In this document: positions 2,032-60,135 of the stretch, piece after piece
How the letters are laid out: the number at the start of each line of letters is the position of its first letter
How positions within the stretch are numbered: the stretch's first letter is position 1
Assembly (NCBI GenBank): GCA_023053685.1
Contig: JALIGW010000057.1
Span: forward strand, 3,754,210-3,818,209
Length of the DNA: 64,000 bases
Source of the DNA: Diadophis punctatus similis
Taxonomy: Eukaryota > Chordata > Lepidosauria > Squamata > Dipsadidae
Reading direction: 5' to 3'
The notes under the pieces: generated by a model
Seen by the model: the letters and a program-made list of their open reading frames with translations, nothing else
Databases searched by the model: none
What the model was told of the DNA's origin: nothing
Made by a program: the position numbers and the translations under genes

Positions 2032-2113
2032 AATGTGGTGGTCTCCCATGAGAAATGAGACACGCAGGCAGGTATCTCGGGACGGGAGCACAGAATCTTC
2101 TGTGTAACCCTCT

Positions 2114-2119: not shown

Positions 2120-2173
2120 AGAATTCAGTTCATATCCAGTTACATTCTTATGACAATGTTAGTAAGGGGTGGG

Positions 2174-2289: not shown

Positions 2290-2383
2290 CATCATGCTTT
2301 TCCTGTCCTGCTTAGTGCCATTGTCCTAATAGTTAACCATTACAGGCTGAAGTAAAGTACTTTGTTCCCAAATTAATCCCACA

Positions 2384-4794
2384 AATTTCTCTCTAGCTGA
2401 CGTTTTCCACATATGCAGAAGCAGAGTACAAAGATTATGCTGAAATCTACCACATCAATTTCTCTCTAGCTGACATTTTCCAAATGTACGGAAGCAGAGT
2501 TCCAGGATTATGCTGAAATCTACCAGCTCAATTTCTCTCTAGCTGACGTTTTCCACATATGCAGAAGCAGAGTACAAAGATTATGCTGAAATCTACATCA
2601 ATTTCTCTCTAGCTGACGTTTTCCACATATGCAGAAGTAGAGTTCCAGGATTATGCTGAAAACCACCACATCAATTTCTCTCTAGTTGACTTTCCCAGGT
2701 GTGCAGGAGAGTTCCAGGATTATGCTGAAATCTACATCAATTTCTCTCAAGCTGACATTTTCCAGATGTACAGAAGCAGAGTTCCAGGTGTATGCTGAAA
2801 TCTGCCTTGCAATTTCTCTCTAGCTGACATTTTGCAGATGTGCAGAAACAGAGTTCCAGGATTATGCTGAGAACACCACATCAATTTCTCTCTAGCTGAC
2901 TTTTCCAGATGTGCAGAAGCAGACTTTCAGGATTATGCTGAAATCTACATCAATTTCGTTCTAGCTGACATTTTCCAGATTCTCAGAAGCAGAGTTCCAG
3001 GATTATGCTGAAATTTACCAGCTCAATTTCTCTCTAGCTGACATTTTCCAGATGTACAGAAGCAGAGTTCCAGGTGTATGCTGAAATCTGCCTTGCAATT
3101 TCTCTCTAGCTGACATTTCGCAGATGTGCAGAAGCAGAGTTCCAGGATTATGCTGAAAACCACAACATCAATTTCTCTCTAGCTGACATTTTCCAGATGT
3201 ACAGAAGCAGAGTTCCAGGTGTATGCTGAAATCTGCCTCTGCATTTTCCCTCTAGCTGACATTTTCCATATGTGCGGAAGCAGAGTTCAAAGATTATGCT
3301 GAAATCTACCACATCAATTTTCTAGCTTACATTTTCCAGATGTGCAGAAGCAGAGTTCCAGGATTATGCTGGAATCTGCCTTGCAATTATTCTCTAGCTG
3401 ACATTTTCCAGCTGTTCGGAAGCAGAGAGCAAAGATTATGCTGGGATATACCACATAAATTTTCCCCAGCTGACATTTTCCAGATGTGCAGTAGCAGAGT
3501 TCAAAGATTATGCTGAAATCTACCACATCAATTTCTCTCTAGCTTACATTTTCCAGATGTGCACAAGCAGAGTACCAGGATTATGCTGGAATCTGCCTTG
3601 CAATTATTCTCTAGCTGACATTTTCCAGATGTTCGGAAGCAGAGAGCAAAGATTATGCTGAGATATACCACATAAATTTTCCCCAGCTGACATTTTCCAG
3701 ATGTGCAGAAGCAGAGTTCAAAGATTATGCTGAAATCTACCACATCAATTTCTCTCTAGTTTACATTTTCCAGATGTGCACAAGCAGAGTTCCAGTATTA
3801 TGCTGAAATCTGCCTCTGCATTTCCCCTCTAGCTGACATTTGCCAGATGTGCAGAAGCAGAGTTCAAAATTATGCTGAAATCTACCACATCAATTTCTCT
3901 CTATCTTACATTTTCCAGATGTACAGAACCAGAGTTCCAGGATTATGCCGAAATCTGCCTCTGCATTTTCCCTCTAGCTGACATTTTCCAGATGTGTGGA
4001 AGCAGAGCTCCAGGATTTTGCTGAAATCTACATCAATTTCTTTCTAGCTGACATTTTCCAGATTCTCAGAAGCAGAGTTCAAAGATTATGCTGAAATCTA
4101 CCAGCTCAATTTCTCTCAAGCTGACATTTTCCAGATGTACAGAAGCAGAGTTCCAGATGTATGCTGAAATCTGCCTTGCAATTTCTCTCTAGCTGACATT
4201 TTGCAGATGTGCAGAAGAAGAGTTCCAGGATTATGCTGAAAACCACCACATCAATTTCTCTCTAGCTGACTTTCCCAGATGTGCAGAAGCACATATCCAG
4301 GATTATGCTGAAATCTGCCTTGTAATTTCTCTCTAGCTGACTTTTCCAGATGTGCAGGAGTGTTCCAGGATTATGCTGAAATCTACATCAATTTATCTCA
4401 AGCTGACATTTTCCAGATGTACAGAAGCAGAGTTCCAGGTGTATGCTGAAAACTGCCTTGCAATTTCTCTCTAGCTGACATTTCGCAGATGTTCAGAAGC
4501 AGAGTTCAAGGATTATGCTGAAAACCACCACATCAATTTCTCTCTAGCTGACTTTCCCAGGTGTGCAGAAGCAGAGGTCCAGGATTATGCTGAAATCTGC
4601 CTTGCAATTTCTCTCTAGCTGACTTTTCCAGATCTGCAGGAGAGTTCCAGGATTATGCTGAAATCTACATCAATTTCTCTCAAGCTGACATTTTCCAGAT
4701 GTGCAGAAGCAGAGTTCAAAGATTATGCTGAAATCTACATCAATTTCTCTCAAGCTGACATTTTCCAGATGTACAGAAGCAGAGGTCCAGGTGT
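2384..4794. repeat. Minisatellite block S0 (left edge of array)
   Basis: About 33 tandem copies of a 70-73 bp monomer. The + strand core is CTAGCTGACATTTTCCAG, then ATGTGCAGAAGCAGAG, then TTCCAGGATTATGCTGAAA. Two short linkers alternate between monomers (ACCACATCAATTT or GCCTTGCAATTT types). S0 starts in mid-monomer against LTR B and ends with AGGTCCAGGTGT at cassette 1. Open frames here, such as 3314-3743, are repeat shadows. Confidence 0.95.
4790..4794. repeat. Target-site duplication GGTGT, left copy (cassette 1)
   Basis: GGTGT directly precedes the TG end of the cassette. The same 5 bases follow its CA end at 5593-5597. Uninterrupted monomers elsewhere read TTCCAGGTGTATGCTG (for example at 4434-4449), which is the empty site. 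Confidence 0.9.
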
Positions 4795-4874
4795 TGTGGT
4801 GGTCTCCCATGAGAAATGAGACACGCAGGCAGGTATCTGGGGACGGGAGCACAGAATCTTCTGTGTAACCATCT

Positions 4875-4880
4875 TTTATT
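4875..4880 (-). terminator. Cassette 1 LTR polyadenylation signal
   Basis: AATAAA on the - strand, about 55 bp downstream of the TATA box. The same signal is present at the equivalent place in every cassette (80 bp from the cassette's left end). Confidence 0.7.
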
Positions 4881-4934
4881 ACAGTTCAGTTCATATCCAG
4901 TTACATTCTTATGACAATGTTAGTAAGGGGTGGG

Positions 4935-5071
4935 TATATACCATATATGGTCATATTGTTAGTCTATTCCTGAGTACACATCCTTTAGGTAACTTATACA
5001 TTCGGGTCACGTATCTATGCATTCAGGTCACGTAGGCACCGGGGTCAGGAGATTTCAGATGAGATGAGTCA
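4935..5071 (-). promoter_or_regulatory. Cassette 1 LTR promoter block
   Basis: TATATA lies at 4935-4940, a perfect CArG box CCATATATGG at 4941-4950, and AP-1 TGAGTCA at 5065-5071. A tandem pair of ATTC(G/A)GGTCACGTA lies at 5000-5013 and 5021-5034. The layout predicts initiation near 4905-4910, reading toward lower coordinates into S0. Activity is inferred only. Confidence 0.6.
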
Positions 5072-5163
5072 CATCCTGCTTTCCTGTCCAGATTAGTGCC
5101 ATTGTCCTAATAGTTAATGAGGTATCCATTACACCGGCTGAAGTAAAGTACTTTGTTCCCAAA

Positions 5164-5558
5164 TTAATCCCACATCTCCTCCTTTTTTGTTTTATGAAAC
5201 GGTCCATCCTCCAATTCCAGAATGGCTTTGGTTTCGCTGATTAGAATGTCCTTCCTGTTGGAGAAAAGCAAGTTTTTGCACAACTGCAGGAGAGAGGGGA
5301 GACATTGGATACAACAACACAACAATATTAATAATACCACAATAATTATAACCGTTGGTATGAGTGACCTCAGCCAACTCCCAACAGGTAGCCAGGACCA
5401 TAAGGCATCCCAGATGTCAATGATGCCACTTCCTTCTCCGGCCAGGGGGTTGACCATGTTCTCCATATGCTCAATTGTGTGTGTGATGTTATATTTATAG
5501 TCAGATACATAAGCATAACAATGTTAATGAATTAAAACACAAACACATCCTTTAGCAG
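5164..5558 (-). pseudogene. env: env 3' fragment: TM membrane anchor and tail (cassette 1)
   Basis: This is the C-terminal part of an ERV transmembrane envelope subunit. The fragment starts just after the immunosuppressive-domain region. A TAA at 5524-5526 interrupts it, and a 100-codon frame then stays open from 5466 to the stop at 5164. That frame holds a tryptophan-rich membrane-proximal stretch (WDALWSWLP), one hydrophobic membrane helix of about 22 residues with a CCC cluster, and a cytoplasmic tail rich in Lys and Glu. The last codons run through the polypurine tract and into the LTR, as in provirus A. There is no signal peptide or surface subunit. The second Met codon has a strong context (AACATGG). 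This copy has Ile where the others have Leu in the tail. Confidence 0.85.
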
Positions 5559-5592
5559 TAGTAAAGTACTTTGTTCCCAAATTAATCCCACA

Positions 5593-8500
5593 GGTGTATG
5601 CTGAAATCTGCCTTGCAATTTCTCTCTAGCTGACTTTTCCAGATGTGCAGAAGCTGAGTTCAAAGATTATGGTGAAATCTACCACATCAATTTCTCTCTA
5701 GCTGACATTTTCCAGACATGCAGAAGCAGAGTTCCAGGATTGTGCTGAAAACCACCACATCAATTTCTCTCTAGCTGACTTTTCCAGATGTGCAGAAGCA
5801 GAGTTCCAGGATTATGCTGAACTCTGCCTTGCAATTTATCTCTAGCTGACTTTTCCAGATGTGCAGAAGCAGAGTTCCAGGATTATGCTGAAATCTACAT
5901 CAATTTCTTTCTAGCTGACATTTTCCAGATTCTCAGAAGCAGAGTTCCAGGATTATGCTGAAATCTACCAGCTCAATTTCTCTCTAGCTGACGTTTTCCA
6001 CATATGCAGAAGCAGAGTACAAAGATTATGCTGAAATCTACATCAATTTCTCTCTAGCTGACGTTTTCCACATATGCAGAAGCAGAGTTCCAGGATTATG
6101 CTGAAAACCACCACATCAATTTCTCTCTAGCTGACTTTCCCAGGTGTGCAGGAGAGTTCCAGGAGTATGCTGAAATCTGCCTTGCAATTTCTCTCTCGCT
6201 GACATTTTGCAGATGTGCAGAAGCAGAGTTCCAGGATTATGCTGAAAACCACCACATCAATTTCTCTCTAGCTGACTTTCCCAGGTGTGCAGAAGCAGAG
6301 GTCCAGGATTATGCTGAAATCTGCCTTGCAATTTCTCTCTAGCTGACTTTTCCAGATGTGCAGGAGAGTTCCAGGATTATGCTGAAATCTACATCAATTT
6401 CTCTCAAGCAGACATTTTCCAGATGTACAGAAGCAGAGTTCCAGGTGTATGCTGAAATCTGCCTTGCAATTTCTCTCTAGCTGACTTTTCCAGATGTGCA
6501 GGAGAGTTCCAGGATTATGCTGAAATCTACATCAATTGCTCTCTAGCTGACATTTTCCAGATGTACAGAAGCAGAGTTCAAAGATTATGGTGAAATCTAC
6601 CACATCAATTTCTCTCTAGGTGACATTTTCCAGACATGCAGAAGCAGAGTTCCAGGATTGTGCTGAAAACCACCACATCAATTTCTCTCTAGCTGACTTT
6701 TCCAGATGTACAGAAGCAGAGTGCCAGGGTTTTGCTGTAACCACTACATCAATTTCTCTCTAGCTGACTTTTCCAGATGTGCAGAAGCAGAGTTCCAGGA
6801 TTATGCTGAACTCTGCCTTGCAATTTATCTCTAGCTGACTTTTCCAGATGTGCAGAAGCAGAGTTCCAGGATTATGCTGAAATCTACATCAATTTCTTTC
6901 TAGCTGACATTTTCCAGATTCTCAGAAGCAGAGTTCCAGGATTATGCTGAAATCTACCAGCTCAATTTCTCTCTATCTGATGTTTTCCACATATGCAGAA
7001 GCAGAGTACAAAGATTATGCTGAAATCTACCACATCAATTTCTCTCTAGCTGACATTTTCCAAATGTACGGAAGCAGAGTTCAAAGATTATGCTGAAATC
7101 TACATCAATTTATCTCGAGCTGACGTTTTCCACATATGCAGAAGCAGAGTTCCAGGATTATGCTGAAAACCACCACATCAATTTCTCTCTAGCTGACTTT
7201 CCCAGGTGTGCAGAAGCAGAGGTCCAGGATTATACTGAAATCTGCCTTGCAATTTCTCTCTAGCTGACTTTTCCAGATGTGCAGGAGAGTTCCAGGATTA
7301 TGCTGAAATCTACATCAATTTCTCTCTAGCTGACATTTTCCAGATGTGCAGAAGCAGAGTTCCAGGATTATGCTGGAATCTGCCTTGCAATTATTCTCTA
7401 GCTGACATTTTCCAGATGTTCGGAAGCAGAGAGCAAAGATTATGCTGAGATATACCACATAAATTTTCCCCAGCTGACATTTTCCAGATGTGCAGAAGCA
7501 GAGTTCAAAGATTATGCTGAAATCTACCACATCAATTTCTCTCTAGTTTACATTTTCCAGATGTGCACAAGCAGAGTTCCAGTATTATGCTGAAATCTGC
7601 CTCTGCATTTCCCCTCTAGCTGACATTTTCCAGATGTGCGGAAGCAGAGTTCAAAGATTATGCTGAAATCTGCCTCTGCATTTTCTTTCTAGCTGACATT
7701 TTCTAGATGTGTGGAAGCAGAGTTCCAAGATTATGCTGAAATCTACGACATGAATTTCTCTCTAGCTTACATTTTCTAGATGTGCAGAAGCAGAGTTCCA
7801 GCATTATGCTGAAATCTGCCACATAAACTTCTCTCTAGCTGACATTTGCCAGATGTGAAGAAGCAGATTTCCAGGATTATGCTGAAATCAGTCTCTGCAT
7901 TTTCTCTCTAGCTGACATTTTCCAAATGTGCGGAAGCAAAGTTCAAAGATTATGCTGAAATCTGCCTTGCAATTTGTCTCCAAGTGAAAATTTCCAGATG
8001 TGGAGAAGCAGAGTTCAGAGATTATGCTGAAATCTACCACATCAATTTCTCTCTAGCTTACATTTTCCAGATGTGCAGAAGCAGAGTTCCAGGATTATGC
8101 TGGAATCTGCCTTGCAATTATTCTCTAGCTGACATTTTCCAGATGTTCGGAAGCAGAGAGCAAAGATTATGCTGAGATATACCACATAAATTTTCCCCAG
8201 CTGACATTTTCCAGATGTGAAGAAGCAGAGTTCAAAGATTATGCTGAAATCTACCACATAAATTCCTATCTAGCTGTCATTTTTCAGATGTGCTGAAGCA
8301 GAGTTCCAGGATTATGCTGAAATCTACCACATCAATTTCTCTCTAGTTTACATTTTCCAGATGTGCACAAGCAGAGTTCCAGTATTATGCTGAAATCTGC
8401 CTCTGCATTTCCCCTCTAGCTGACATTTTCCAGATGTGCGGAAGCAGAGTTCAAAGATTATGCTGAAATCTGCCTCTGCATTTTCTTTCTAGCTGACATT

Positions 8501-9385
8501 TTCTAGATGTGCAGAAGCAGAGTTCCAGCATTATGCTGAAATCTACCACATAAACTTCTCTCTAGCTGACATTTGCCAGATGTGAAGAAGCAGATTTCCA
8601 GGATTATGCTGAAATCTGCCTCTGCATTTTCCCTCTAGCTGACATTTTCCAGATGTGAAGAAGCAGAGTTCAAAGATTATGCTGAAATCTACCAGCTCAA
8701 TTTCTCTCAAGCTGACATTTTCCAGATGTACAGAAGCAGAGTTCCAGATGTATGCTGAAATCTGCCTTGCAATTTCTCTCTAGCTGACATTTTGCAGATG
8801 TGCAGAAGAAGAGTTCCAGGATTATGCTGAAAACCACCACATCAATTTCTCTCTAGCTGACTTTCCCAGATGTGCAGAAGCACATATCCAGGATTATGCT
8901 GAAATCTGCCTTGTAATTTCTCTCTAGCTGACTTTTCCAGATGTGCAGGAGTGTTCCAGGATTATGCTGAAATCTACATCAATTTATCTCAAGCTGACAT
9001 TTTCCAGATCTACAGAAGCAGAGTTCCAGGTGTATGCTGAAAACTGCCTTGCAATTTCTCTCTAGCTGACATTTCGCAGATGTTCAGAAGCAGAGTTCAA
9101 GGATTATGCTGAAAACCACCACATCAATTTCTCTCTAGCTGACTTTCCCAGGTGTGCAGAAGCAGAGGTCCAGGATTATGCTGAAATCTGCCTTGCAATT
9201 TCTCTCTAGCTGACTTTTCCAGATCTGCAGGAGAGTTCCAGGATTATGCTGAAATCTACATCAATTTCTCTCAAGCTGACATTTTCCAGATGTGCAGAAG
9301 CAGAGTTCAAAGATTATGCTGAAATCTACATCAATTTCTCTCAAGCTGACATTTTCCAGATGTACAGAAGCAGAGGTCCAGGTGT
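5593..9385. repeat. Minisatellite block S1 (segment type A)
   Basis: About 53 monomers between cassettes 1 and 2, corresponding monomer for monomer to S4 (23400-27048) except for about two extra monomers here (144 bp). Peptides readable from it on either strand are frame shadows, since the monomer is usually not a multiple of three. Confidence 0.95.
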
Positions 9386-10183
9386 TGTGGTGGTCTCCCA
9401 TGAGAAATGAGACACGCAGGCAGGTATCTGGGGACGGGAGCACAGAATCTTCTGTGTAACCATCTTTTATTACAGTTCAGTTCATATCCAGTTACATTCT
9501 TATGACAATGTTAGTAAGGGGTGGGTATATACCATATATGGTCATATTGTTAGTCTATTCCTGAGTACACATCCTTTAGGTAACTTATACATTCGGGTCA
9601 CGTATCTATGCATTCAGGTCACGTAGGCACCGGGGTCAGGAGATTTCAGATGAGATGAGTCACATCCTGCTTTCCTGTCCTGATTAGTGCCATTGTCCTA
9701 ATAGTTAATGAGGTATCCATTACACCGGCTGAAGTAAAGTACTTTGTTCCCAAATTAATCCCACATCTCCTCCTTTTTTGTTTTATGAAACGGTCCATCC
9801 TCCAATTCCAGAAGGGCTTTGGTTTCGCTGATTAGAATGTCCTTCCTGTTGGAGAAAAGCAAGTTTTTGCACAACTGCAGGAGAGAGGGGAGACATTGGA
9901 TACAACAACACAACAATATTAATAATACCACAATAATTATAACCGTTGGTATGAGTGACCTCAGCCAACTCCCAACAGGTAGCCAGGACCATAAGGCATC
10001 CCAGATGTCAATGATGCCACTTCCTTCTCCGGCCAGGGGGTTGACCATGTTCTCCATATGCTCAATTGTGTGTGTGATGTTATATTTATAGTCAGATACA
10101 TAAGCATAACAATGTTAATGAATTAAAACACAAACACATCCTTTAGCAGTAGTAAAGTACTTTGTTCCCAAATTAATCCCACA
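9386..10183 (-). mobile_element. ERV cassette 2
   Basis: Same structure and junctions as cassette 1: LTR at 9386-9765, CArG box at 9532-9541, GGTGT at 9381-9385 and 10184-10188. It carries the ancestral-looking CTGTCCTGATTAG state, shared with LTR B at the T. Confidence 0.93.
9755..10149 (-). pseudogene. env: env TM-tail fragment (cassette 2)
   Basis: The 100-codon frame from 10057 to 9755 is open. The peptide equals that of cassettes 3 to 10 and differs from cassette 1 at one tail residue (Leu here, Ile there). Confidence 0.85.
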
Positions 10184-13100
10184 GGTGTATGCTGAAATCT
10201 GCCTTGCAATTTCTCTCTAGCTGACTTTTCCAGATGTGCAGAAGCTGAGTTCAAAGATTATGGTGAAATCTACCACATCAATTTCTCTCTAGCTGACATT
10301 TTCCAGACATGCAGAAGCAGAGTTCCAGGATTGTGCTGAAAACCACCACATCAATTTCTCTCTAGCTGACTTTTCCAGATGTGCAGAAGCAGAGTTCCAG
10401 GATTATGCTGAACTCTGCCTTGCAATTTATCTCTAGCTGACTTTTCCAGATGTGCAGAAGCAGAGTTCCAGGATTATGCTGAAATCTACATCAATTTCTT
10501 TCTAGCTGACATTTTCCAGATTCTCAGAAGCAGAGTTCCAGGATTATGCTGAAATCTACCAGCTCAATTTCTCTCTAGCTGACGTTTTCCACATATGCAG
10601 AAGCAGAGTACAAAGATTATGCTGAAATCTACATCAATTTCTCTCTAGCTGACGTTTTCCACATATGCAGAAGCAGAGTTCCAGGATTATGCTGAAAACC
10701 ACCACATCAATTTCTCTCTAGCTGACTTTCCCAGGTGTGCAGGAGAGTTCCAGGAGTATGCTGAAATCTGCCTTGCAATTTCTCTCTCGCTGACATTTTG
10801 CAGATGTGCAGAAGCAGAGTTCCAGGATTATGCTGAAAACCACCACATCAATTTCTCTCTAGCTGACTTTCCCAGGTGTGCAGAAGCAGAGGTCCAGGAT
10901 TATGCTGAAATCTGCCTTGCAATTTCTCTCTAGCTGACTTTTCCAGATGTGCAGGAGAGTTCCAGGATTATGCTGAAATCTACATCAATTTCTCTCAAGC
11001 AGACATTTTCCAGATGTACAGAAGCAGAGTTCCAGGTGTATGCTGAAATCTGCCTTGCAATTTCTCTCTAGCTGACTTTTCCAGATGTGCAGGAGAGTTC
11101 CAGGATTATGCTGAAATCTACATCAATTGCTCTCTAGCTGACATTTTCCAGATGTACAGAAGCAGAGTTCAAAGATTATGGTGAAATCTACATCAATTTC
11201 TCTCTAGCTGACATTTTCCAGATGTGCAGAAGCAGAGTTCCAGGATTATGCTGGAATCTGCCTTGCAATTATTCTCTAGCTGACATTTTCCAGATGTTCG
11301 GAAGCAGAGAGCAAAGATTATGCTGAGATATACCACATAAATTTTCCCCAGCTGACATTTTCCAGATGTGCAGAAGCAGAGTGCCAGGGTTTTGCTGTAA
11401 CCACTACATCAATTTCTCTCTAGCTGACTTTTCCAGATGTGCAGAAGCAGAGTTCCAGGATTATGCTGAACTCTGCCTTGCAATTTATCTCTAGCTGACT
11501 TTTCCAGATGTGCAGAAGCAGAGTTCCAGGATTATGCTGAAATCTACATCAATTTCTTTCTAGCTGACATTTTCCAGATTCTCAGAAGCAGAGTTCCAGG
11601 ATTATGCTGAAATCTACCAGCTCAATTTCTCTCTATCTGATGTTTTCCACATATGCAGAAGCAGAGTACAAAGATTATGCTGAAATCTACCACATCAATT
11701 TCTCTCTAGCTGACATTTTCCAAATGTACGGAAGCAGAGTTCAAAGATTATGCTGAAATCTACATCAATTTATCTCGAGCTGACGTTTTCCACATATGCA
11801 GAAGCAGAGTTCCAGGATTATGCTGAAAACCACCACATCAATTTCTCTCTAGCTGACTTTCCCAGGTGTGCAGAAGCAGAGGTCCAGGATTATACTGAAA
11901 TCTGCCTTGCAATTTCTCTCTAGCTGACTTTTCCAGATGTGCAGGAGAGTTCCAGGATTATGCTGAAATCTACATCAATTTCTCTCTAGCTGACATTTTC
12001 CAGATGTGCAGAAGCAGAGTTCCAGGATTATGCTGGAATCTGCCTTGCAATTATTCTCTAGCTGACATTTTCCAGATGTTCGGAAGCAGAGAGCAAAGAT
12101 TATGCTGAGATATACCACATAAATTTTCCCCAGCTGACATTTTCCAGATGTGCAGAAGCAGAGTTCAAAGATTATGCTGAAATCTACCACATCAATTTCT
12201 CTCTAGTTTACATTTTCCAGATGTGCACAAGCAGAGTTCCAGTATTATGCTGAAATCTGCCTCTGCATTTCCCCTCTAGCTGACATTTTCCAGATGTGCG
12301 GAAGCAGAGTTCAAAGATTATGCTGAAATCTGCCTCTGCATTTTCTTTCTAGCTGACATTTTCTAGATGTGTGGAAGCAGAGTTCCAAGATTATGCTGAA
12401 ATCTACGACATGAATTTCTCTCTAGCTTACATTTTCTAGATGTGCAGAAGCAGAGTTCCAGCATTATGCTGAAATCTGCCACATAAACTTCTCTCTAGCT
12501 GACATTTGCCAGATGTGAAGAAGCAGATTTCCAGGATTATGCTGAAATCAGTCTCTGCATTTTCTCTCTAGCTGACATTTTCCAAATGTGCGGAAGCAAA
12601 GTTCAAAGATTATGCTGAAATCTGCCTTGCAATTTGTCTCCAAGTGAAAATTTCCAGATGTGGAGAAGCAGAGTTCAGAGATTATGCTGAAATCTACCAC
12701 ATCAATTTCTCTCTAGCTTACATTTTCCAGATGTGCAGAAGCAGAGTTCCAGGATTATGCTGGAATCTGCCTTGCAATTATTCTCTAGCTGACATTTTCC
12801 AGATGTTCGGAAGCAGAGAGCAAAGATTATGCTGAGATATACCACATAAATTTTCCCCAGCTGACATTTTCCAGATGTGAAGAAGCAGAGTTCAAAGATT
12901 ATGCTGAAATCTACCACATAAATTCCTATCTAGCTGTCATTTTTCAGATGTGCTGAAGCAGAGTTCCAGGATTATGCTGAAATCTACCACATCAATTTCT
13001 CTCTAGTTTACATTTTCCAGATGTGCACAAGCAGAGTTCCAGTATTATGCTGAAATCTGCCTCTGCATTTCCCCTCTAGCTGACATTTTCCAGATGTGCG

Positions 13101-15484: not shown

Positions 15485-16282
15485 TGTGGTGGTCTCCCAT
15501 GAGAAATGAGACACGCAGGCAGGTATCTGGGGACGGGAGCACAGAATCTTCTGTGTAACCATCTTTTATTACAGTTCAGTTCATATCCAGTTACATTCTT
15601 ATGACAATGTTAGTAAGGGGTGGGTATATACCATATATGGTCATATTGTTAGTCTATTCCTGAGTACACATCCTTTAGGTAACTTATACATTCGGGTCAC
15701 GTATCTATGCATTCAGGTCACGTAGGCACCGGGGTCAGGAGATTTCAGATGAGATGAGTCACATCCTGCTTTCCTGTCCTGATTAGTGCCATTGTCCTAA
15801 TAGTTAATGAGGTATCCATTACACCGGCTGAAGTAAAGTACTTTGTTCCCAAATTAATCCCACATCTCCTCCTTTTTTGTTTTATGAAACGGTCCATCCT
15901 CCAATTCCAGAAGGGCTTTGGTTTCGCTGATTAGAATGTCCTTCCTGTTGGAGAAAAGCAAGTTTTTGCACAACTGCAGGAGAGAGGGGAGACATTGGAT
16001 ACAACAACACAACAATATTAATAATACCACAATAATTATAACCGTTGGTATGAGTGACCTCAGCCAACTCCCAACAGGTAGCCAGGACCATAAGGCATCC
16101 CAGATGTCAATGATGCCACTTCCTTCTCCGGCCAGGGGGTTGACCATGTTCTCCATATGCTCAATTGTGTGTGTGATGTTATATTTATAGTCAGATACAT
16201 AAGCATAACAATGTTAATGAATTAAAACACAAACACATCCTTTAGCAGTAGTAAAGTACTTTGTTCCCAAATTAATCCCACA
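15485..16282 (-). mobile_element. ERV cassette 3
   Basis: LTR at 15485-15864, CArG at 15631-15640, env tail at 15865-16248, truncated LTR start at 16251-16282. GGTGT at 15480-15484 and 16283-16287. Confidence 0.93.
15854..16248 (-). pseudogene. env: env TM-tail fragment (cassette 3)
   Basis: Open 100-codon frame from 16156 to 15854, with the same upstream TAA as the other cassettes. Confidence 0.85.
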
Positions 16283-22200: not shown

Positions 22201-22601
22201 TATCTCAAACTGACATTTTCCAGATGTACAGAAGCAGAGTTCCAGGTGTATGCTGAAAACTGCCTTGCAATTTCTCTCTAGCTGACATTTCGCAGATGTT
22301 CAGAAGCAGAGTTCAAGGATTATGCTGAAAACCACCACATCAATTTCTCTCTAGCTGACTTTCCCAGGTGTGCAGAAGCAGAGGTCCAGGATTATGCTGA
22401 AATCTGCCTTGCAATTTCTCTCTAGCTGACTTTTCCAGATCTGCAGGAGAGTTCCAGGATTATGCTGAAATCTACATCAATTTCTCTCAAGCTGACATTT
22501 TCCAGATGTGCAGAAGCAGAGTTCAAAGATTATGCTGAAATCTACATCAATTTCTCTCAAGCTGACATTTTCCAGATGTACAGAAGCAGAGGTCCAGGTG
22601 T
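16283..22601. repeat. Minisatellite block S3 (segment type C)
   Basis: The longest block, about 88 monomers. From about 19600 to 21500 it carries a type-specific run of monomers (GATTTACAGAAGCAG and GTGCTCAAGCATAG variants) found elsewhere only in S6. Relative to S6 it holds an extra 498 bp at about 17743-18240, about seven monomers. Confidence 0.95.
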
Positions 22602-49000: not shown

Positions 49001-50960
49001 GATGTGCAGAAGCAGAGTTCCAGCATTATGCTGAAATCAGCCTCTGCATGTTCTCTCTAGCTGACATTTTCCACATGTGCAGAAGCAGAGTTCCAACATT
49101 ATGCTGAAATCTGCCTTGCAATTTCTCTCTAGCTGACATTTGCCAGATGTGCAGAAGCAGAGTTCCAAGATTATGCTGAAACCACCACATCAATTTCTCT
49201 CTAGCTGACATTTGCCAGATGTGCAGAAGCAGAGTTCAAAATTATGCTGAAATCTACCACATCAATTTCTCTCTATCTTACATTTTCCAGATGTACAGAA
49301 CCAGAGTTCCAGGATTATGCCGAAATCTGCCTCTGCATTTTCCCTCTAGCTGACATTTTCCAGATGTGTGGAAGCAGAGCTCCAGGATTATGCTGAAATC
49401 TACATCAATTTCTTTCTAGCTGACATTTTCCAGATTCTCAGAAGCAGAGTTCAAAGATTATGCTGAAATCTACCAGCTCAATTTCTCTCAAGCTGACATT
49501 TTCCAGATGTACAGAAGCAGAGTTCCAGGTGTATGCTGAAATCTGCCTTGCAATTTCTCTCTAGCTGACATTTTGCAGATGTGCAGAAGAAGAGTTCCAG
49601 GATTATGCTGAAAACCACCACATCAATTTCTCTCTAGCTGACTTTCCCAGATGTGCAGAAGCACATATCCAGGATTATGCTGAAATCTGCCTTGTAATTT
49701 CTCTCTAGCTGACTTTTCCAGATGTGCAGGAGTGTTCCAGGATTATGCTGAAATCTACATCAATTTATCTCAAGCTGACATTTTCCAGATGTACAGAAGC
49801 AGAGTTCCAGGTGTATGCTGAAAACTGCCTTGCAATTTCTCTCTAGCTGACATTTCGCAGATGTTCAGAAGCAGAGTTCAAGGATTATGCTGAAAACCAC
49901 CACATCAATTTCTTTCTAGCTGACATTTTCCACATGTGCAGAAGCAGAGTTCCAACATTATGCTGAAATCTGCCTTGCAATTTCTCTCTAGCTGACATTT
50001 TCCAGATGTGCAGAAGCAGAGTTCCAGCATTATGCTGAAATCAGCCTCTGCATGTTCTCTCTAGCTGACATTTTCCACATGTGCAGAAGCAGAGTTCCAA
50101 CATTATGCTGAAATCTGCCTTGCAATTTCTCTCTAGCTGACATTTGCCAGATGTGCAGAAGCAGAGTTCCAAGATTATGCTGAAACCACCACATCAATTT
50201 CTCTCTAGCTGACATTTGCCAGATGTGCAGAAGCAGAGTTCAAAATTATGCTGAAATCTACCACATCAATTTCTCTCTATCTTACATTTTCCAGATGTAC
50301 AGAACCAGAGTTCCAGGATTATGCCGAAATCTGCCTCTGCATTTTCCCTCTAGCTGACATTTTCCAGATGTGTGGAAGCAGAGCTCCAGGATTATGCTGA
50401 AATCTACATCAATTTCTTTCTAGCTGACATTTTCCAGATTCTCAGAAGCAGAGTTCAAAGATTATGCTGAAATCTACCAGCTCAATTTCTCTCAAGCTGA
50501 CATTTTCCAGATGTACAGAAGCAGAGTTCCAGGTGTATGCTGAAATCTGCCTTGCAATTTCTCTCTAGCTGACATTTTGCAGATGTGCAGAAGAAGAGTT
50601 CCAGGATTATGCTGAAAACCACCACATCAATTTCTCTCTAGCTGACTTTCCCAGATGTGCAGAAGCACATATCCAGGATTATGCTGAAATCTGCCTTGTA
50701 ATTTCTCTCTAGCTGACTTTTCCAGATGTGCAGGAGTGTTCCAGGATTATGCTGAAATCTACATCAATTTATCTCAAGCTGACATTTTCCAGATGTACAG
50801 AAGCAGAGTTCCAGGTGTATGCTGAAAACTGCCTTGCAATTTCTCTCAAGCTGACATTTTCCAGATGTGCAGAAGCAGAGTTCAAAGATTATGCTGAAAT
50901 CTACATCAATTTCTCTCAAGCTGACATTTTCCAGATGTACAGAAGCAGAGGTCCAGGTGT
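46090..50960. repeat. Minisatellite block S8 (segment type B')
   Basis: About 68 monomers. The internal duplication seen in S7 is present with a shift of 1004 bp (49026 and 50030), one monomer fewer. The last part before cassette 9 has lost several monomers relative to S7 (the join is near 50845). Confidence 0.95.
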
Positions 50961-51758
50961 TGTGGTGGTCTCCCATGAGAAATGAGACACGCAGGCAGGT
51001 ATCTGGGGACGGGAGCACAGAATCTTCTGTGTAACCATCTTTTATTACAGTTCAGTTCATATCCAGTTACATTCTTATGACAATGTTAGTAAGGGGTGGG
51101 TATATACCATATATGGTCATATTGTTAGTCTATTCCTGAGTACACATCCTTTAGGTAACTTATACATTCGGGTCACGTATCTATGCATTCAGGTCACGTA
51201 GGCACCGGGGTCAGGAGATTTCAGATGAGATGAGTCACATCCTGCTTTCCTGTCCTGATTAGTGCCATTGTCCTAATAGTTAATGAGGTATCCATTACAC
51301 CGGCTGAAGTAAAGTACTTTGTTCCCAAATTAATCCCACATCTCCTCCTTTTTTGTTTTATGAAACGGTCCATCCTCCAATTCCAGAAGGGCTTTGGTTT
51401 CGCTGATTAGAATGTCCTTCCTGTTGGAGAAAAGCAAGTTTTTGCACAACTGCAGGAGAGAGGGGAGACATTGGATACAACAACACAACAATATTAATAA
51501 TACCACAATAATTATAACCGTTGGTATGAGTGACCTCAGCCAACTCCCAACAGGTAGCCAGGACCATAAGGCATCCCAGATGTCAATGATGCCACTTCCT
51601 TCTCCGGCCAGGGGGTTGACCATGTTCTCCATATGCTCAATTGTGTGTGTGATGTTATATTTATAGTCAGATACATAAGCATAACAATGTTAATGAATTA
51701 AAACACAAACACATCCTTTAGCAGTAGTAAAGTACTTTGTTCCCAAATTAATCCCACA
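50961..51758 (-). mobile_element. ERV cassette 9
   Basis: LTR at 50961-51340, CArG at 51107-51116, GGTGT at 50956-50960 and 51759-51763. No private difference noticed. Confidence 0.93.
51330..51724 (-). pseudogene. env: env TM-tail fragment (cassette 9)
   Basis: Open 100-codon frame from 51632 to 51330. Confidence 0.85.
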
Positions 51759-54700
51759 GGTGTATGCTGAAATCTGCCTTGCAATTTCTCTCTAGCTGAC
51801 TTTTCCAGATGTGCAGAAGCTGAGTTCAAAGATTATGGTGAAATCTACCACATCAATTTCTCTCTAGCTGACTTTTCCAGATGTGCAGAAGCAGAGTTCC
51901 AGGATTATGCTGAACTCTGCCTTGCAATTTATCTCTAGCTGACTTTTCCAGATGTGCAGAAGCAGAGTTCCAGGATTATGCTGAAATCTACATCAATTTC
52001 TTTCTAGCTGACATTTTCCAGATTCTCAGAAGCAGAGTTCCAGGATTATGCTGAAATCTACCAGCTCAATTTCTCTCTAGCTGACGTTTTCCACATATGC
52101 AGAAGCAGAGTACAAAGATTATGCTGAAATCTACATCAATTTCTCTCTAGCTGACGTTTTCCACATATGCAGAAGCAGAGTTCCAGGATTATGCTGAAAA
52201 CCACCACATCAATTTCTCTCTAGCTGACTTTCCCAGGTGTGCAGGAGAGTTCCAGGAGTATGCTGAAATCTGCCTTGCAATTTCTCTCTCGCTGACATTT
52301 TGCAGATGTGCAGAAGCAGAGTTCCAGGATTATGCTGAAAACCACCACATCAATTTCTCTCTAGCTGACTTTCCCAGGTGTGCAGAAGCAGAGGTCCAGG
52401 ATTATGCTGAAAACCACCACATCAATTTCTCTCTAGCTGACTTTCCCAGGTGTGCAGGAGAGTTCCAGGAGTATGCTGAAATCTGCCTTGCAATTTCTCT
52501 CTCGCTGACATTTTGCAGATGTGCAGAAGCAGAGTTCCAGGATTATGCTGAAAACCACCACATCAATTTCTCTCTAGCTGACTTTCCCAGGTGTGCAGAA
52601 GCAGAGGTCCAGGATTATGCTGAAATCTGCCTTGCAATTTCTCTCTAGCTGACTTTTCCAGATGTGCAGGAGAGTTCCAGGATTATGCTGAAATCTACAT
52701 CAATTTCTCTCAAGCAGACATTTTCCAGATGTACAGAAGCAGAGTTCCAGGTGTATGCTGAAATCTGCCTTGCAATTTCTCTCTAGCTGACTTTTCCAGA
52801 TGTGCAGGAGAGTTCCAGGATTATGCTGAAATCTACATCAATTGCTCTCTAGCTGACATTTTCCAGATGTACAGAAGCAGAGTTCAAAGATTATGGTGAA
52901 ATCTACCACATCAATTTCTCTCTAGGTGACATTTTCCAGACATGCAGAAGCAGAGTTCCAGGATTGTGCTGAAAACCACCACATCAATTTCTCTCTAGCT
53001 GACTTTTCCAGATGTGCAGAAGCAGAGTGCCAGGGTTTTGCTGTAACCACTACATCAATTTCTCTCTAGCTGACTTTTCCAGATGTGCAGAAGCAGAGTT
53101 CCAGGATTATGCTGAACTCTGCCTTGCAATTTATCTCTAGCTGACTTTTCCAGATGTGCAGAAGCAGAGTACAAAGATTATGCTGAAAACCACCACATCA
53201 ATTTCTCTCTAGCTGACTTTTCCAGATGTGCAGAAGCAGAGTGCCAGGGTTTTGCTGTAACCACTACATCAATTTCTCTCTAGCTGACTTTTCCAGATGT
53301 GCAGAAGCAGAGTTCCAGGATTATGCTGAACTCTGCCTTGCAATTTATCTCTAGCTGACTTTTCCAGATGTGCAGAAGCAGAGTTCCAGGATTATGCTGA
53401 AATCTACATCAATTTCTTTCTAGCTGACATTTTCCAGATTCTCAGAAGCAGAGTTCCAGGATTATGCTGAAATCTACCAGCTCAATTTCTCTCTATCTGA
53501 CGTTTTCCACATATGCAGAAGCAGAGTACAAAGATTATGCTGAAATCTACCACATCAATTTCTCTCTAGCTGACATTTTCCAAATGTACGGAAGCAGAGT
53601 TCAAAGATTATGCTGAAATCTACATCAATTTATCTCGAGCTGACGTTTTCCACATATGCAGAAGCAGAGTTCCAGGATTATGCTGAAAACCACCACATCA
53701 ATTTCTCTCTAGCTGACTTTCCCAGGTGTGCAGAAGCAGAGGTCCAGGATTATACTGAAATCTGCCTTGCAATTTCTCTCTAGCTGACTTTTCCAGATGT
53801 GCAGGAGAGTTCCAGGATTACGCTGAAATCTACATCAATTTCTCTCTAGCTGACATTTTCCAGATGTGCAGAAGCAGAGTTCCAGGATTATGCTGGAATC
53901 TGCCTTGCAATTATTCTCTAGCTGACATTTTCCAGATGTTCGGAAGCAGAGAGCAAAGATTATGCTGAGATATACCACATAAATTTTCCCCAGCTGACAT
54001 TTTCCAGATGTGCAGAAGCAGAGTTCAAAGATTATGCTGAAATCTACCACATCAATTTCTCTCTAGTTTACATTTTCCAGATGTGCACAAGCAGAGTTCC
54101 AGTATTATGCTGAAATCTGCCTCTGCATTTCCCCTCTAGCTGACATTTTCCAGATGTGCGGAAGCAGAGTTCAAAGATTATGCTGAAATCTGCCTCTGCA
54201 TTTTCTTTCTAGCTGACATTTTCTAGATGTGTGGAAGCAGAGTTCCAAGATTATGCCGAAATCTACGACATGAATTTCTCTCTAGCTTACATTTTCTAGA
54301 TGTGCAGAAGCAGAGTTCCAGCATTATGCTGAAATCTGCCACATAAACTTCTCTCTAGCTGACATTTGCCAGATGTGAAGAAGCAGATTTCCAGGATTAT
54401 GCTGAAATCAGTCTCTGCATTTTCTCTCTAGCTGACATTTTCCAGATGTGCGGAAGCAAAGTTCAAAGATTATGCTGAAATCTGCCTTGCAATTTGTCTC
54501 CAAGTGAAAATTTCCAGATGTGGAGAAGCAGAGTTCAGAGATTATGCTGAAATCTACCACATCAATTTCTCTCTAGCTTACATTTTCCAGATGTGCAGAA
54601 GCAGAGTTCCAGGATTATGCTGGAATCTGCCTTGCAATTATTCTCTAGCTGACATTTTCCAGATGTTCGGAAGCAGAGAGCAAAGATTATGCTGAGATAT

Positions 54701-56913
54701 ACCACATAAATTTTCCCCAGCTGACATTTTCCAGATGTGAAGAAGCAGAGTTCAAAGATTATGCTGAAATCTACCACATAAATTCCTATCTAGCTGTCAT
54801 TTTTCAGATGTGCTGAAGCAGAGTTCCAGGATTATGCTGAAATCTATGACATCAATTTCTCTCTAGCTTACATTTTCCAGATGTGCAGAAGAACAGTTCC
54901 AGTTTTATGCTGAAATCTGCCTTGAAATTATTCTCTAGCTGACATTTTCCATATGTTCGGAAGCAGAGTTCAAAGATTATGCTGAAATATACCAGATAAA
55001 TTTTCCCCAGCTGACATTTTCCAGATGTGCAGAAGCAGAGTTCCAGCATTATGCTGAAATCAGCCTCTGCATGTTCTCTCTAGCTGACATTTTCCACATG
55101 TGCAGAAGCAGAGTTCCAACATTATGCTGAAATCTGCCTTGCAATTTCTCTCTAGCTGACATTTGCCAGATGTGCAGAAGCAGAGTTCCAAGATTATGCT
55201 GAAACCACCACATCAATTTCTCTCTAGCTGACATTTGCCAGATGTGCAGAAGCAGAGTTCAAAATTATGCTGAAATCTACCACATCAATTTCTCTCTATC
55301 TTACATTTTCCAGATGTACAGAACCAGAGTTCCAGGATTATGCCGAAATCTGCCTCTGCATTTTCCCTCTAGCTGACATTTTCCAGATGTGTGGAAGCAG
55401 AGCTCCAGGATTATGCTGAAATCTACATCAATTTCTTTCTAGCTGACATTTTCCAGATTCTCAGAAGCAGAGTTCAAAGATTATGCTGAAATCTACCAGC
55501 TCAATTTCTCTCAAGCTGACATTTTCCAGATGTACAGAAGCAGAGTTCCAGGTGTATGCTGAAATCTGCCTTGCAATTTCTCTCTAGCTGACATTTTGCA
55601 GATGTGCAGAAGAAGAGTTCCAGGATTATGCTGAAAACCACCACATCAATTTCTCTCTAGCTGACTTTCCCAGATGTGCAGAAGCACATATCCAGGATTA
55701 TGCTGAAATCTGCCTTGTAATTTCTCTCTAGCTGACTTTTCCAGATGTGCAGGAGTGTTCCAGGATTATGCTGAAATCTACATCAATTTATCTCAAGCTG
55801 ACATTTTCCAGATGTACAGAAGCAGAGTTCCAGGTGTATGCTGAAAACTGCCTTGCAATTTCTCTCTAGCTGACATTTCGCAGATGTTCAGAAGCAGAGT
55901 TCAAGGATTATGCTGAAAACCACCACATCAATTTCTCTCTAGCTGACTTTCCCAGGTGTGCAGAAGCAGAGTTCCAGCATTATGCTGAAATCAGCCTCTG
56001 CATGTTCTCTCTAGCTGACATTTTCCACATGTGCAGAAGCAGAGTTCCAACATTATGCTGAAATCTGCCTTGCAATTTCTCTCTAGCTGACATTTTCCAG
56101 ATGTGCAGAAGCAGAGTTCCAGCATTATGCTGAAATCAGCCTCTGCATGTTCTCTCTAGCTGACATTTTCCACATGTGCAGAAGCAGAGTTCCAACATTA
56201 TGCTGAAATCTGCCTTGCAATTTCTCTCTAGCTGACATTTGCCAGATGTGCAGAAGCAGAGTTCCAAGATTATGCTGAAACCACCACATCAATTTCTCTC
56301 TAGCTGACATTTGCCAGATGTGCAGAAGCAGAGTTCAAAATTATGCTGAAATCTACCACATCAATTTCTCTCTATCTTACATTTTCCAGATGTACAGAAC
56401 CAGAGTTCCAGGATTATGCCGAAATCTGCCTCTGCATTTTCCCTCTAGCTGACATTTTCCAGATGTGTGGAAGCAGAGCTCCAGGATTATGCTGAAATCT
56501 ACATCAATTTCTTTCTAGCTGACATTTTCCAGATTCTCAGAAGCAGAGTTCAAAGATTATGCTGAAATCTACCAGCTCAATTTCTCTCAAGCTGACATTT
56601 TCCAGATGTACAGAAGCAGAGTTCCAGGTGTATGCTGAAATCTGCCTTGCAATTTCTCTCTAGCTGACATTTTGCAGATGTGCAGAAGAAGAGTTCCAGG
56701 ATTATGCTGAAAACCACCACATCAATTTCTCTCTAGCTGACTTTCCCAGATGTGCAGAAGCACATATCCAGGATTATGCTGAAATCTGCCTTGTAATTTC
56801 TCTCTAGCTGACTTTTCCAGATGTGCAGGAGTGTTCCAGGATTATGCTGAAATCTACATCAATTTATCTCAAGCTGACATTTTCCAGATGTACAGAAGCA
56901 GAGGTCCAGGTGT
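51759..56913. repeat. Minisatellite block S9 (segment type B')
   Basis: About 72 monomers. It has two recent local tandem duplications of three monomers each (about 52198-52624 and 53027-53455, shift 213-214 bp) and the 1076-bp internal duplication (55049 and 56125). One monomer present in the sister blocks is missing near 51870. Confidence 0.95.
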
Positions 56914-57711
56914 TGTGGTGGTCTCCCATGAGAAATGAGACACGCAGGCAGGTATCTGGGGACGGGAGCACAGAATCTTCTGTGTTACCATCTTTTATTA
57001 CAGTTCAGTTCATATCCAGTTACATTCTTATGACAATGTTAGTAAGGGGTGGGTATATACCATATATGGTCATATTGTTAGTCTATTCCTGAGTACACAT
57101 CCTTTAGGTAACTTATACATTCGGGTCACGTATCTATGCATTCAGGTCACGTAGGCACCGGGGTCAGGAGATTTCAGATGAGATGAGTCACATCCTGCTT
57201 TCCTGTCCTGATTAGTGCCATTGTCCTAATAGTTAATGAGGTATCCATTACACCGGCTGAAGTAAAGTACTTTGTTCCCAAATTAATCCCACATCTCCTC
57301 CTTTTTTGTTTTATGAAACGGTCCATCCTCCAATTCCAGAAGGGCTTTGGTTTCGCTGATTAGAATGTCCTTCCTGTTGGAGAAAAGCAAGTTTTTGCAC
57401 AACTGCAGGAGAGAGGGGAGACATTGGATACAACAACACAACAATATTAATAATACCACAATAATTATAACCGTTGGTATGAGTGACCTCAGCCAACTCC
57501 CAACAGGTAGCCAGGACCATAAGGCATCCCAGATGTCAATGATGCCACTTCCTTCTCCGGCCAGGGGGTTGACCATGTTCTCCATATGCTCAATTGTGTG
57601 TGTGATGTTATATTTATAGTCAGATACATAAGCATAACAATGTTAATGAATTAAAACACAAACACATCCTTTAGCAGTAGTAAAGTACTTTGTTCCCAAA
57701 TTAATCCCACA
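56914..57711 (-). mobile_element. ERV cassette 10
   Basis: LTR at 56914-57293, CArG at 57060-57069, GGTGT at 56909-56913 and 57712-57716. Private TGTGTTACC (others TGTGTAACC). The monomers directly left of it are fewer than for other cassettes. Confidence 0.93.
57283..57677 (-). pseudogene. env: env TM-tail fragment (cassette 10)
   Basis: Open 100-codon frame from 57585 to 57283. Confidence 0.85.
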
Positions 57712-60135
57712 GGTGTATGCTGAAATCTGCCTTGCAATTTCTCTCTAGCTGACTTTTCCAGATGTGCAGAAGCTGAGTTCAAAGATTATGGTGAAATCTA
57801 CCACATCAATTTCTCTCTAGCTGACATTTTCCAGACATGCAGAAGCAGAGTTCCAGGATTGTGCTGAAAACCACCACATCAATTTCTCTCTAGCTGACTT
57901 TTCCAGATGTGCAGAAGCAGAGTTCCAGGATTATGCTGAACTCTGCCTTGCAATTTATCTCTAGCTGACTTTTCCAGATGTGCAGAAGCAGAGTTCCAGG
58001 ATTATGCTGAAATCTACATCAATTTCTTTCTAGCTGACATTTTCCAGATTCTCAGAAGCAGAGTTCCAGGATTATGCTGAAATCTACCAGCTCAATTTCT
58101 CTCTAGCTGACGTTTTCCACATATGCAGAAGCAGAGTACAAAGATTATGCTGAAATCTACATCAATTTCTCTCTAGCTGACGTTTTCCACATATGCAGAA
58201 GCAGAGTTCCAGGATTATGCTGAAAACCACCACATCAATTTCTCTCTAGCTGACTTTCCCAGGTGTGCAGGAGAGTTCCAGGAGTATGCTGAAATCTGCC
58301 TTGCAATTTCTCTCTCGCTGACATTTTGCAGATGTGCAGAAGCAGAGTTCCAGGATTATGCTGAAAACCACCACATCAATTTCTCTCTAGCTGACTTTCC
58401 CAGGTGTGCAGAAGCAGAGGTCCAGGATTATGCTGAAATCTGCCTTGCAATTTCTCTCTAGCTGACTTTTCCAGATGTGCAGGAGAGTTCCAGGATTATG
58501 CTGAAATCTACATCAATTTCTCTCAAGCAGACATTTTCCAGATGTACAGAAGCAGAGTTCCAGGTGTATGCTGAAATCTGCCTTGCAATTTCTCTCTAGC
58601 TGACTTTTCCAGATGTGCAGGAGAGTTCCAGGATTATGCTGAAATCTACATCAATTGCTCTCTAGCTGACATTTTCCAGATGTACAGAAGCAGAGTTCAA
58701 AGATTATGGTGAAATCTACCACATCAATTTCTCTCTAGGTGACATTTTCCAGACATGCAGAAGCAGAGTTCCAGGATTGTGCTGAAAACCACCACATCAA
58801 TTTCTCTCTAGCTGACTTTTCCAGATGTGCAGAAGCAGAGTGCCAGGGTTTTGCTGTAACCACTACATCAATTTCTCTCTAGCTGACTTTTCCAGATGTG
58901 CAGAAGCAGAGTTCCAGGATTATGCTGAACTCTGCCTTGCAATTTATCTCTAGCTGAATTTTCCAGATGTGCAGAAGCAGAGTTCCAGGATTATGCTGAA
59001 ATCTACATCAATTTCTTTCTAGCTGACATTTTCCAGATTCTCAGAAGCAGAGTTCCAGGATTATGCTGAAATCTACCAGCTCAATTTCTCTCTATCTGAC
59101 GTTTTCCACATATGCAGAAGCAGAGTACAAAGATTATGCTGAAATCTACCACATCAATTTCTCTCTAGCTGACATTTTCCAAATGTACGGAAGCAGAGTT
59201 CAAAGATTATGCTGAAATCTACATCAATTTATCTCGAGCTGACGTTTTCCACATATGCAGAAGCAGAGTTCCAGGATTATGCTGAAAACCACCACATCAA
59301 TTTCTCTCTAGCTGACTTTCCCAGGTGTGCAGAAGCAGAGGTCCAGGATTATACTGAAATCTGCCTTGCAATTTCTCTCTAGCTGACTTTTCCAGATGTG
59401 CAGGAGAGTTCCAGGATTATGCTGAAATCTACATCAATTTCTCTCTAGCTGACATTTTCCAGATGTGCAGAAGCAGAGATCCAGGATTATACTGAAATCT
59501 GCCTTGCAATTTCTCTCTAGCTGACTTTTCCAGATGTGCAGGAGAGTTCCAGGATTATGCTGAAATCTACATCAATTTCTCTCTAGCTGACATTTTCCAG
59601 ACATGCAGAAGCAGAGTTCCAGGATTGTGCTGAAAACCACCACATCAATTTCTCTCTAGCTGACTTTTCCAGATGTGCAGAAGCAGAGTGCCAGGATTTT
59701 GCTGTAACCACTACATCAATTTGTCTCTAGCTGACTTTTCCAGATGTGCAGAAGCAGACTTCCAGGATTATGCTTAAATCTGCCTTGCAATTTATCTCTA
59801 GCTGACTTTTCCAGATGTGCAGAAGCAGAGTTCCAGGATTATGCTGAAATCTACATCAATTTCTTTCTAGCTGACATTTTCCAGATTCTCAGAAGCAGAG
59901 TTCAAAGGTTATGCTGAAATCTACATCAATTTCTCTCTAGCTGACTTTTCCAGATGTGCAGAAGCAGAGTTCCAGGATTATGCTGAAATCTACATCAATT
60001 TCTCTCAAGCTGACATTTTCCAGATGTACAGAAGCAGAGTTCCAGGTGTATGCTGAAATCTGCCTTTCAATTTCTCTCTAGCTGACATTTCGCAGATGTG
60101 CAGAAGCAGAGTTCCAGGATTATGCTGAAAACCAC
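57712..60135. repeat. Minisatellite block S10 (right edge of array)
   Basis: About 34 monomers. It begins like every other block but ends at LTR A in mid-monomer (GCTGAAAACCAC), a different monomer phase from the cassette insertion point. Around 60040-60052 it contains an uninterrupted TTCCAGGTGTATG monomer, the empty-site form. Confidence 0.95.

Follow-up and report, generated by a model that had tools for sequence, protein, structure and literature searches.

Ten cut-down proviruses in a snake satellite array as probable copies of one retroviral insertion

In a 64,000-nucleotide stretch of the genome of the snake Diadophis punctatus similis (assembly GCA_023053685.1, contig JALIGW010000057.1, here C372; the whole stretch, C372:3754210-3818209, is called the window), a satellite array of ~72-bp monomers is interrupted by ten short proviral remnants, or cassettes, of one endogenous retrovirus (ERV) family. 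We take the ten cassettes to be copies of a single retroviral insertion that was reduced once and then amplified within a higher-order repeat (HOR) of the satellite. The history that we propose, and hold to be very probable, is one integration, an internal deletion and then amplification by satellite exchange.

The cassettes (1 to 10) lie on the minus strand at 4795-5592, 9386-10183, 15485-16282, 22602-23399, 27049-27846, 32933-33730, 39552-40349, 45292-46089, 50961-51758 and 56914-57711. Each is exactly 798 bp long, and their starts are spaced, in window order, 4591, 6099, 7117, 4447, 5884, 6619, 5740, 5669 and 5953 bp apart. The initial annotation of this stretch, made from its letters, had described ten near-identical 798-bp cassettes in one orientation, the same nine spacings and, in every cassette, a long terminal repeat (LTR), a polypurine tract and an env tail; all of this held. 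Read along the minus strand, a cassette opens with the initial 33 nt of an LTR and about one filler base, after which come the env tail, the polypurine tract (AAAAAAGGAGGAGA) and a complete 380-bp LTR that starts with TGTGGG and ends with CCACCACA, that is, has TG...CA ends; an AATAAA and a TATA-like stretch can be picked out in the LTR alignment by eye. In cassette 1 the complete LTR occupies 4795-5174, the polypurine tract and env tail 5175-5559 and the first 33 nt of the 5′ LTR 5560-5592, with a GGTGT target-site duplication (TSD) on both sides. The LTR ends, the polypurine tract beside the 3′ LTR, the short TSD and the coding remnants in a related insertion (A, below) are those of an endogenous retrovirus, and we read the cassette as a provirus without its interior between nt 33 of the 5′ LTR and the env tail.

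GGTGT flanks the cassette on both sides in 10 of 10 cases; all ten interrupt one monomer type, at the same base and in the same monomer order; and length, strand, TSD and deletion junction are common to all. Because the same TSD, deletion junction and monomer type recur in every cassette, they point to a single insertion and not to ten arrivals. As in the human K111/K222 proviruses discussed at the end, the copies carry one target duplication and one satellite flank, that is, they multiplied as DNA. Variation is confined to six of the 798 alignment columns; five of the copies are identical, and two copies differ on average at 1.47 sites (0.184%). The monomer variant that bears the cassette has no uninterrupted copy in the window, where a related GAGTTCC form has 47. 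A 30-mer across the deletion junction has 12 exact matches in the 1.78-Gb host genome (reversed control, 0), all of them on C372: ten inside the window and two to its left, at C372:3743914 and 3748505.

We can give next to no credence to ten separate integrations at a preferred site of the monomer. Further insertions of this ERV family do lie within the satellite, and 7 of 13 insertion junctions (placed by hand) fall within 12 of the 73 monomer positions, but this clustering is not significant (scan statistic, P = 0.07, or 0.18 with two possible copies merged), which leaves a preferred integration position unsupported by the 13 junctions; none of the 19 host flanks of the family that were sampled outside contig C101 (below) is in satellite; and, for the cassettes themselves, the common internal deletion junction rules out independent integrations, as do the variants that they share.

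The array that holds the cassettes runs from 2384 to 60135 (plus strand). Tandem Repeats Finder (TRF), the check that had been suggested for it, returns one array at 2384-60130 with a period of 73 and also of 145, in which neighbouring monomers match each other at 74%. Once the ten inserts had been cut out, each with one of its two 5-bp duplicates, wraparound alignment gave 695 monomers of 66-75 bp (54 of them of 66 bp) with 143 distinct sequences, forming 84 clusters at two or fewer edits; the count of about 690 made earlier was therefore close, and the range of 70-73 bp given with it too narrow. The window sequence had no Rfam match at gathering scores, and exact monomer pieces had none in the viral_contigs and genome_contigs sets. 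Both edges of the array in the window are formed by further LTRs of the cassette's ERV family (2034-2383 and 60136-60515), the left of which merely interrupts a much longer satellite.

That the cassettes belong to a higher-order repeat, as the initial annotation had it, is borne out by comparison of units: diverged monomers recur in a fixed order, and the units are far more alike than the monomers. Across 45 unit comparisons, which took in only monomer pairs at most four edits apart, differences ranged from 0.05 to 1.06% (mean 0.45%). Units S1-S3 (53, 74 and 88 monomers; 4742-22548, plus strand) form a three-cassette block that matches units S4-S6 (51, 71 and 81 monomers; 22549-39498, plus strand), with differences over aligned monomers of 0.05% for S1/S4 (2 differences in 51 aligned monomers), 0.25% for S2/S5 and 0.05% for S3/S6 (3 in 81), so that a three-insert block of ~17 kb was duplicated. 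The following units S7-S9 (69, 68 and 72 monomers; 39499-56860, plus strand) are alike at 0.13-0.26% (S8/S9, 6 differences in 65 aligned monomers). At the left, window positions 1-11499 are the right part of a 15,844-bp tandem duplication and equal, base for base, the sequence 15,844 bp leftward. Of 15,856 positions, 14,047 were compared (window 1-11499, two 1,200-bp stretches and the 148 bp with which the second copy begins), and none differed. The breakpoint of this copy joins two monomers in phase, and the copy would be the most recent duplication step.

In the history that we propose, a retrovirus with target duplications of 5-6 bp integrated once into one ~72-bp satellite monomer, as the GGTGT duplication shows, and the resident provirus lost everything between nt 33 of its 5′ LTR and the env tail, as the one common junction shows. 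We place the deletion after integration because a truncated 5′ LTR is not what normal reverse transcription would be expected to leave. Satellite copies that were misaligned but in phase would then have undergone unequal exchange, which duplicated blocks of satellite together with the 798-bp remnant, presumably at the scale of units of 51-88 monomers, then of three-unit blocks and latest of the 15.8-kb block, probably with some exchange between the inserts; the nested duplications and the one in-phase breakpoint are the basis for proposing exchange. Amplification of this kind would need neither a function of the cassette nor viral activity, and the satellite would act as a DNA-level copier of resident proviruses, a role that we assign to it because other insertions of the same ERV family have been carried in the same way. 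A route through circular DNA, with satellite and remnant excised, copied by rolling circle and reinserted, appears unlikely to us. The head-to-tail three-unit blocks and the exact 15.8-kb tandem copy do resemble reinserted multimers, but the 12 exact junctions are confined to one locus on one contig, the breakpoint is in monomer phase, and the units vary in length by whole monomers, as repeated exchange in place predicts.

The satellite extends well beyond the window. On C372, all 14 points sampled between 1.5 and 3.73 Mb were satellite and none of four at 0, 0.3, 0.7 and 1.1 Mb, so that, if continuous between sampled points, the block would measure at least 2.3 Mb with the window as its right edge. 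No monomers occur in the 13.6 kb from the window to the end of the contig, where there is 1.1 kb of AGAT repeat (L024:2501-3600); a TAGA/AGAT microsatellite also closes the window itself (63848-64000). A second contig, C101 (17.2 Mb), was satellite at 16 of 27 coarse points and in 7 of 8 further stretches, those seven having been chosen at earlier match positions. A monomer 34-mer had 25,496 exact matches genome-wide (control, 0), of which none lies on C1-C100 (C1 alone has 321 Mb) by list order, the 100 matches listed beginning on C101; 18 other contigs, from each of which one 500-bp point was sampled, had no satellite at these points. Counted by exact matches, the satellite thus seems limited to C101 and C372, perhaps together with further contigs that come after C101, and a pan-centromeric satellite was rejected on the same two results. 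What had been taken for a stand-alone minisatellite, or variable number tandem repeat, is instead the edge of a multi-megabase, chromosome-restricted satellite with several insertions of the same ERV family. Within it the cassette HOR would be a local feature: exact monomers of the window made up 0-5 of the 19-69 monomers in each of the 14 C372 samples (0-19%).

Several observations weigh against so simple an account of the amplification. First, distances between cassettes are uncorrelated with those between the satellite units that follow them (Mantel r = -0.12, with 3,344 of 5,000 permutations as high), although six variable sites only enter this comparison, and divergence is lower among the cassettes (0.18%) than among the satellite units (0.45%); the account therefore has to allow for some homogenisation of the cassettes or exchange between them, and such exchange is likely. 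Second, three C101 stretches are richer in exact monomers of the window (35 of 141, 39 of 140 and 36 of 123, or 25-29%) than bulk C372 is, so the source of the HOR need not be the adjacent satellite. Third, to the left of the cassettes lies a ~5.9-kb composite insertion, whose left copy is at C372:3734842-3740748 and whose right end is an insertion at the left edge of the array (B, below). The left junction of the composite is the cassette's own (...GAGGTCCAGGTGT), and its right flank, AATTT, is that of another insertion; its LTR differs from the cassette LTR at 7 of 380 positions, and its 1-kb left flank matches the cassette flanks weakly, being closest to that of cassette 9 (916 of 1,006 columns, against 833-882 for the other nine). 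The composite appears to sit in a diverged unit. The original insertion may survive in it as a longer remnant that has recombined with a second provirus, or else LTR recombination may have transferred the junction; given its structure, at least one recombination between proviruses in the satellite is needed.

For a satellite assembly, the absence of any difference in the compared parts of the 15.8-kb copy is suspicious, and the assembler may have created this exact copy or even the order of the units as a whole, our analysis being of assembly sequence alone. We consider such an artefact improbable, since the units are unlike in length and content (51-88 monomers) and have private variants, the cassettes have private point differences, and a second satellite-provirus HOR on another scaffold (below) behaves alike; a wrong join could account for the last copy but not for the order of ten cassettes.

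The uniformity of the cassettes might also be read as a sign of use, the cassette having been retained and amplified because its LTR has a useful role, for example in driving transcription of the satellite. A complete 380-bp LTR with its AATAAA and TATA-like stretch is indeed present in all ten units in one orientation, and the cassette varies less than the surrounding satellite. Hitch-hiking, however, explains why the cassettes are uniform and lie in one orientation, no more than six sites underlie the lower diversity, and most of the satellite does without a cassette, since an ERV match was found at 0 of the 14 sampled points of bulk C372 satellite; we regard a selected LTR role as very unlikely. 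Returning to amplification by satellite exchange, we can attach a rough age to it. The snake substitution rate is ~2.4e-9 per site and year, at which the 0.184% difference would place the last common copy of the cassettes roughly 0.4 million years ago, a minimum for the amplification because of exchange between inserts.

The two insertions at the array edges belong to the cassette's ERV family. B, whose left end is outside the window, has a 350-bp 5′ LTR at 2034-2383 (minus strand, from LTR alignment) that interrupts the satellite, followed at 941-2033 (minus strand) by a leader and open frames (941-1480 and 1481-2158) that look gag-like by eye and have no Pfam match; the primer-binding site beside this LTR resembles, we assume, that for tRNA-Trp. 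A forms the right edge of the satellite with a 380-bp 3′ LTR at 60136-60515 (minus strand, from LTR alignment), and has env-region frames at 60505-61903 (minus strand), of which that at 60505-60942 matches Pfam TLV_coat (E = 1.2e-7; 31.2 bits against a cut-off of 22.5) and that at 60965-61903 has no Pfam match; apart from the TLV_coat match and an integrase match below the cut-off (below), the other five frames scanned, the gag-like ones included, gave none. A search for homologous proteins returned one for the transmembrane (TM) piece of env, at 49% identity over 80% (PF00429; source code lgn), and none for the gag-like piece. A weak integrase zinc-finger match, below the Pfam cut-off, lies in A at window 61864-62541. 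Because it almost adjoins env, most of pol also seems to be missing from A.

Aligned to the cassette LTR, that of B has 32 gap columns and differs at 9 of the 349 aligned bases, and that of A differs at 17 of 380; on account of these differences we treat A and B as separate insertions or lineages; the left flank of A also differs from the cassette's integration site. Three stretches that the cassette and A LTRs possess are missing from the LTR of B: one of 21 bp, which is one copy of a tandem duplication, and two of 2 and 8 bp close by. There would thus be two LTR subtypes in one array. Inside the composite is an inverted LTR, 90.8% identical to the cassette LTR (L021:8024-8380), whose copy ends at window position 15; after it, at window ~60-215, comes what is presumably a CR1-like tail.

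Elsewhere in the genome, a 31-nt LTR end (two or fewer mismatches) had 526 matches (control, 0). The 100 matches listed, which are all exact, include 68 in the first 5.74 Mb of C101 and seven on C1. Outer flanks were fetched for 40 of these 100, of which three were internal, on the gag side, and 37 were host flanks; satellite made up 9 of 18 host flanks on C101 and 0 of 19 on nine other contigs. The latter figure leaves satellite-specific targeting by the ERV unsupported; the family would insert genome-wide and is not satellite-specific, yet appears dense on C101. Non-satellite samples of C101 (0.8-1 kb) matched LTR, env or gag-like pieces of the family in 3 of 11 cases (at 6.0, 6.5 and 17.0 Mb; L108, L109, L119), a figure that combines two sample sets, 3 of 5 and 0 of 6. 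The satellite-borne copies occur in both orientations with 5- or 6-bp duplications (AGCATA, CTGGG, ACCATA). Among those on C101, a solo LTR (L025:3394-3758, TSD ACCATA) and an LTR-to-LTR insertion (L026:104-5726, TSD AGCATA) are at the same monomer position in opposite orientations.

One region of C101 looks like a second ERV-bearing HOR. At C101:556128-879260 (0.556-0.880 Mb) there are, among the matches listed, 11 pairs of LTRs 5,274-5,279 bp apart, and the first eight pairs start 11.5-16.8 kb from each other, with two intervals of 12,828 bp and one of 12,827 bp. The outer flanks fetched for 4 of the 11 pairs agree in all four over 60 nt, and two satellite stretches of ~7 kb between pairs (L102, L103) are identical at 7,122 of 7,123 positions. 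We interpret the LTR pairs and their satellite spacers as repeat units of such an HOR, in which the proviruses would, from the spacing of the pairs, extend from LTR to LTR; one insertion probably gave about 11 such copies among the matches listed. Two other C101 junctions recur at 3.5-3.7 Mb (L062=L063 and L065=L066, over 60 nt).

The chromosome that carries this satellite may be the W, at about even chances: a snake W would be in keeping with the chromosome-restricted occurrence of the satellite, the high density of ERVs and the GATA repeats at the edge of the block. The rattlesnake W is more than 80% repetitive and rich in ERVs (PMC9447483), and Bkm/AGAT repeats occur on the snake W (PMC7397244). 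Against a W, a 16-nt GATA run was found in 0 of 18 stretches of C101, 13 of them satellite. As far as the accessible text of the two papers goes, ERV-rich W chromosomes of snakes and birds resemble C101 in their high ERV density on one repeat-filled chromosome (PMC9447483, PMC8310711). They differ in that we found no discussion of satellite-borne ERV amplification in that text, and 'satellite' and 'tandem' occur 0 times in the rattlesnake main text (PMC9447483). We put forward only tentatively, as somewhat less probable than its opposite, the broader idea that a chromosome-restricted, W-linked multi-megabase satellite copies resident retroviruses, as remnants or LTR to LTR, so that part of the 'refugium' retroviral load would be due to DNA recombination and not to retroviral replication.

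Proviruses on a W or Y that are nearly identical can be taken as a sign of recent retroviral activity, and insertions are dated by the divergence of their LTRs. Here, the near-identical copies would stem from satellite exchange, one insertion having given 12 cassettes, which suggests that satellite DNA may multiply viral remnants without virus activity; if common, the process would inflate estimates of activity and bias dating. The cassette should also serve as a clean tracer, being a unique marker within the satellite of the order of duplications, with a copy number that could be tracked in populations by one PCR junction.

Retrovirus-like sequence has reportedly joined a satellite before, in the bovine 1.711b and 1.709 satellites, where an insert is said to have become part of the repeat unit and to have been amplified with it, but there the unit is long and fixed and the satellite a major centromeric one. 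The complete ape genomes are likewise said to contain composite elements, tandem units of satellite and transposable elements, which, by contrast, are not known to go back to one retroviral insertion that has its TSD intact and lies in a multi-megabase array. Among snake satellites, DRU-Sat-1/2/3/5, PGU-Sat-1/2/3 and PFL-MspI include chromosome- or W-specific clusters, a comparison made by description only and from the accessible part of the source (PMC9913375), and PBI-DdeI, in what is accessible of its description, has monomers of 194-210 bp against ~72 bp here (PMC6820872). The array had been called unusual and had not been recognised as a described satellite family. We likewise found no named satellite of such structure in the literature, published snake satellites being compared without monomer sequences, nor any ERV-bearing HOR in a reptile in the open literature (titles and starts of abstracts, with most subscription journals outside it), but a close precedent exists in the human K111 and K222 proviruses (HERV-K111/K222), which lie in the pericentromeric CER satellite (D22Z3/D22Z8), according to the part of the paper available to us (PMC4425911), on which the comparison below is based.

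As in the snake array, HERV-K111/K222 are proviruses in a satellite of short units (there 48 bp × 8) with a common TSD (there the 6-bp GAATTC), for which the authors postulate multiplication through recombination with satellite and provirus as templates, and of which deleted versions exist (PMC4425911). The HERV-K/K222/K111 hybrid proviruses with unlike flanks resemble, moreover, the composite at C372:3734842 (PMC4425911). The human elements differ in being HERV-K (HML-2) and in having spread over many centromeric regions; K222 lacks the 5′ LTR and gag without having been cut down to a 798-bp remnant that regularly marks an HOR, and we found no unit-by-unit order in the accessible text (PMC4425911). 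We would thus say of the snake array that it works like K111/K222, not that it is the same system, and satellite-borne proviruses as a kind can be regarded as known already. What appears to be new, besides a setting that may be W-linked, is 1) a cut-down provirus that serves as a regular marker of an HOR whose history of duplication can be read, and 2) more than one ERV-bearing HOR on one chromosome-restricted satellite.

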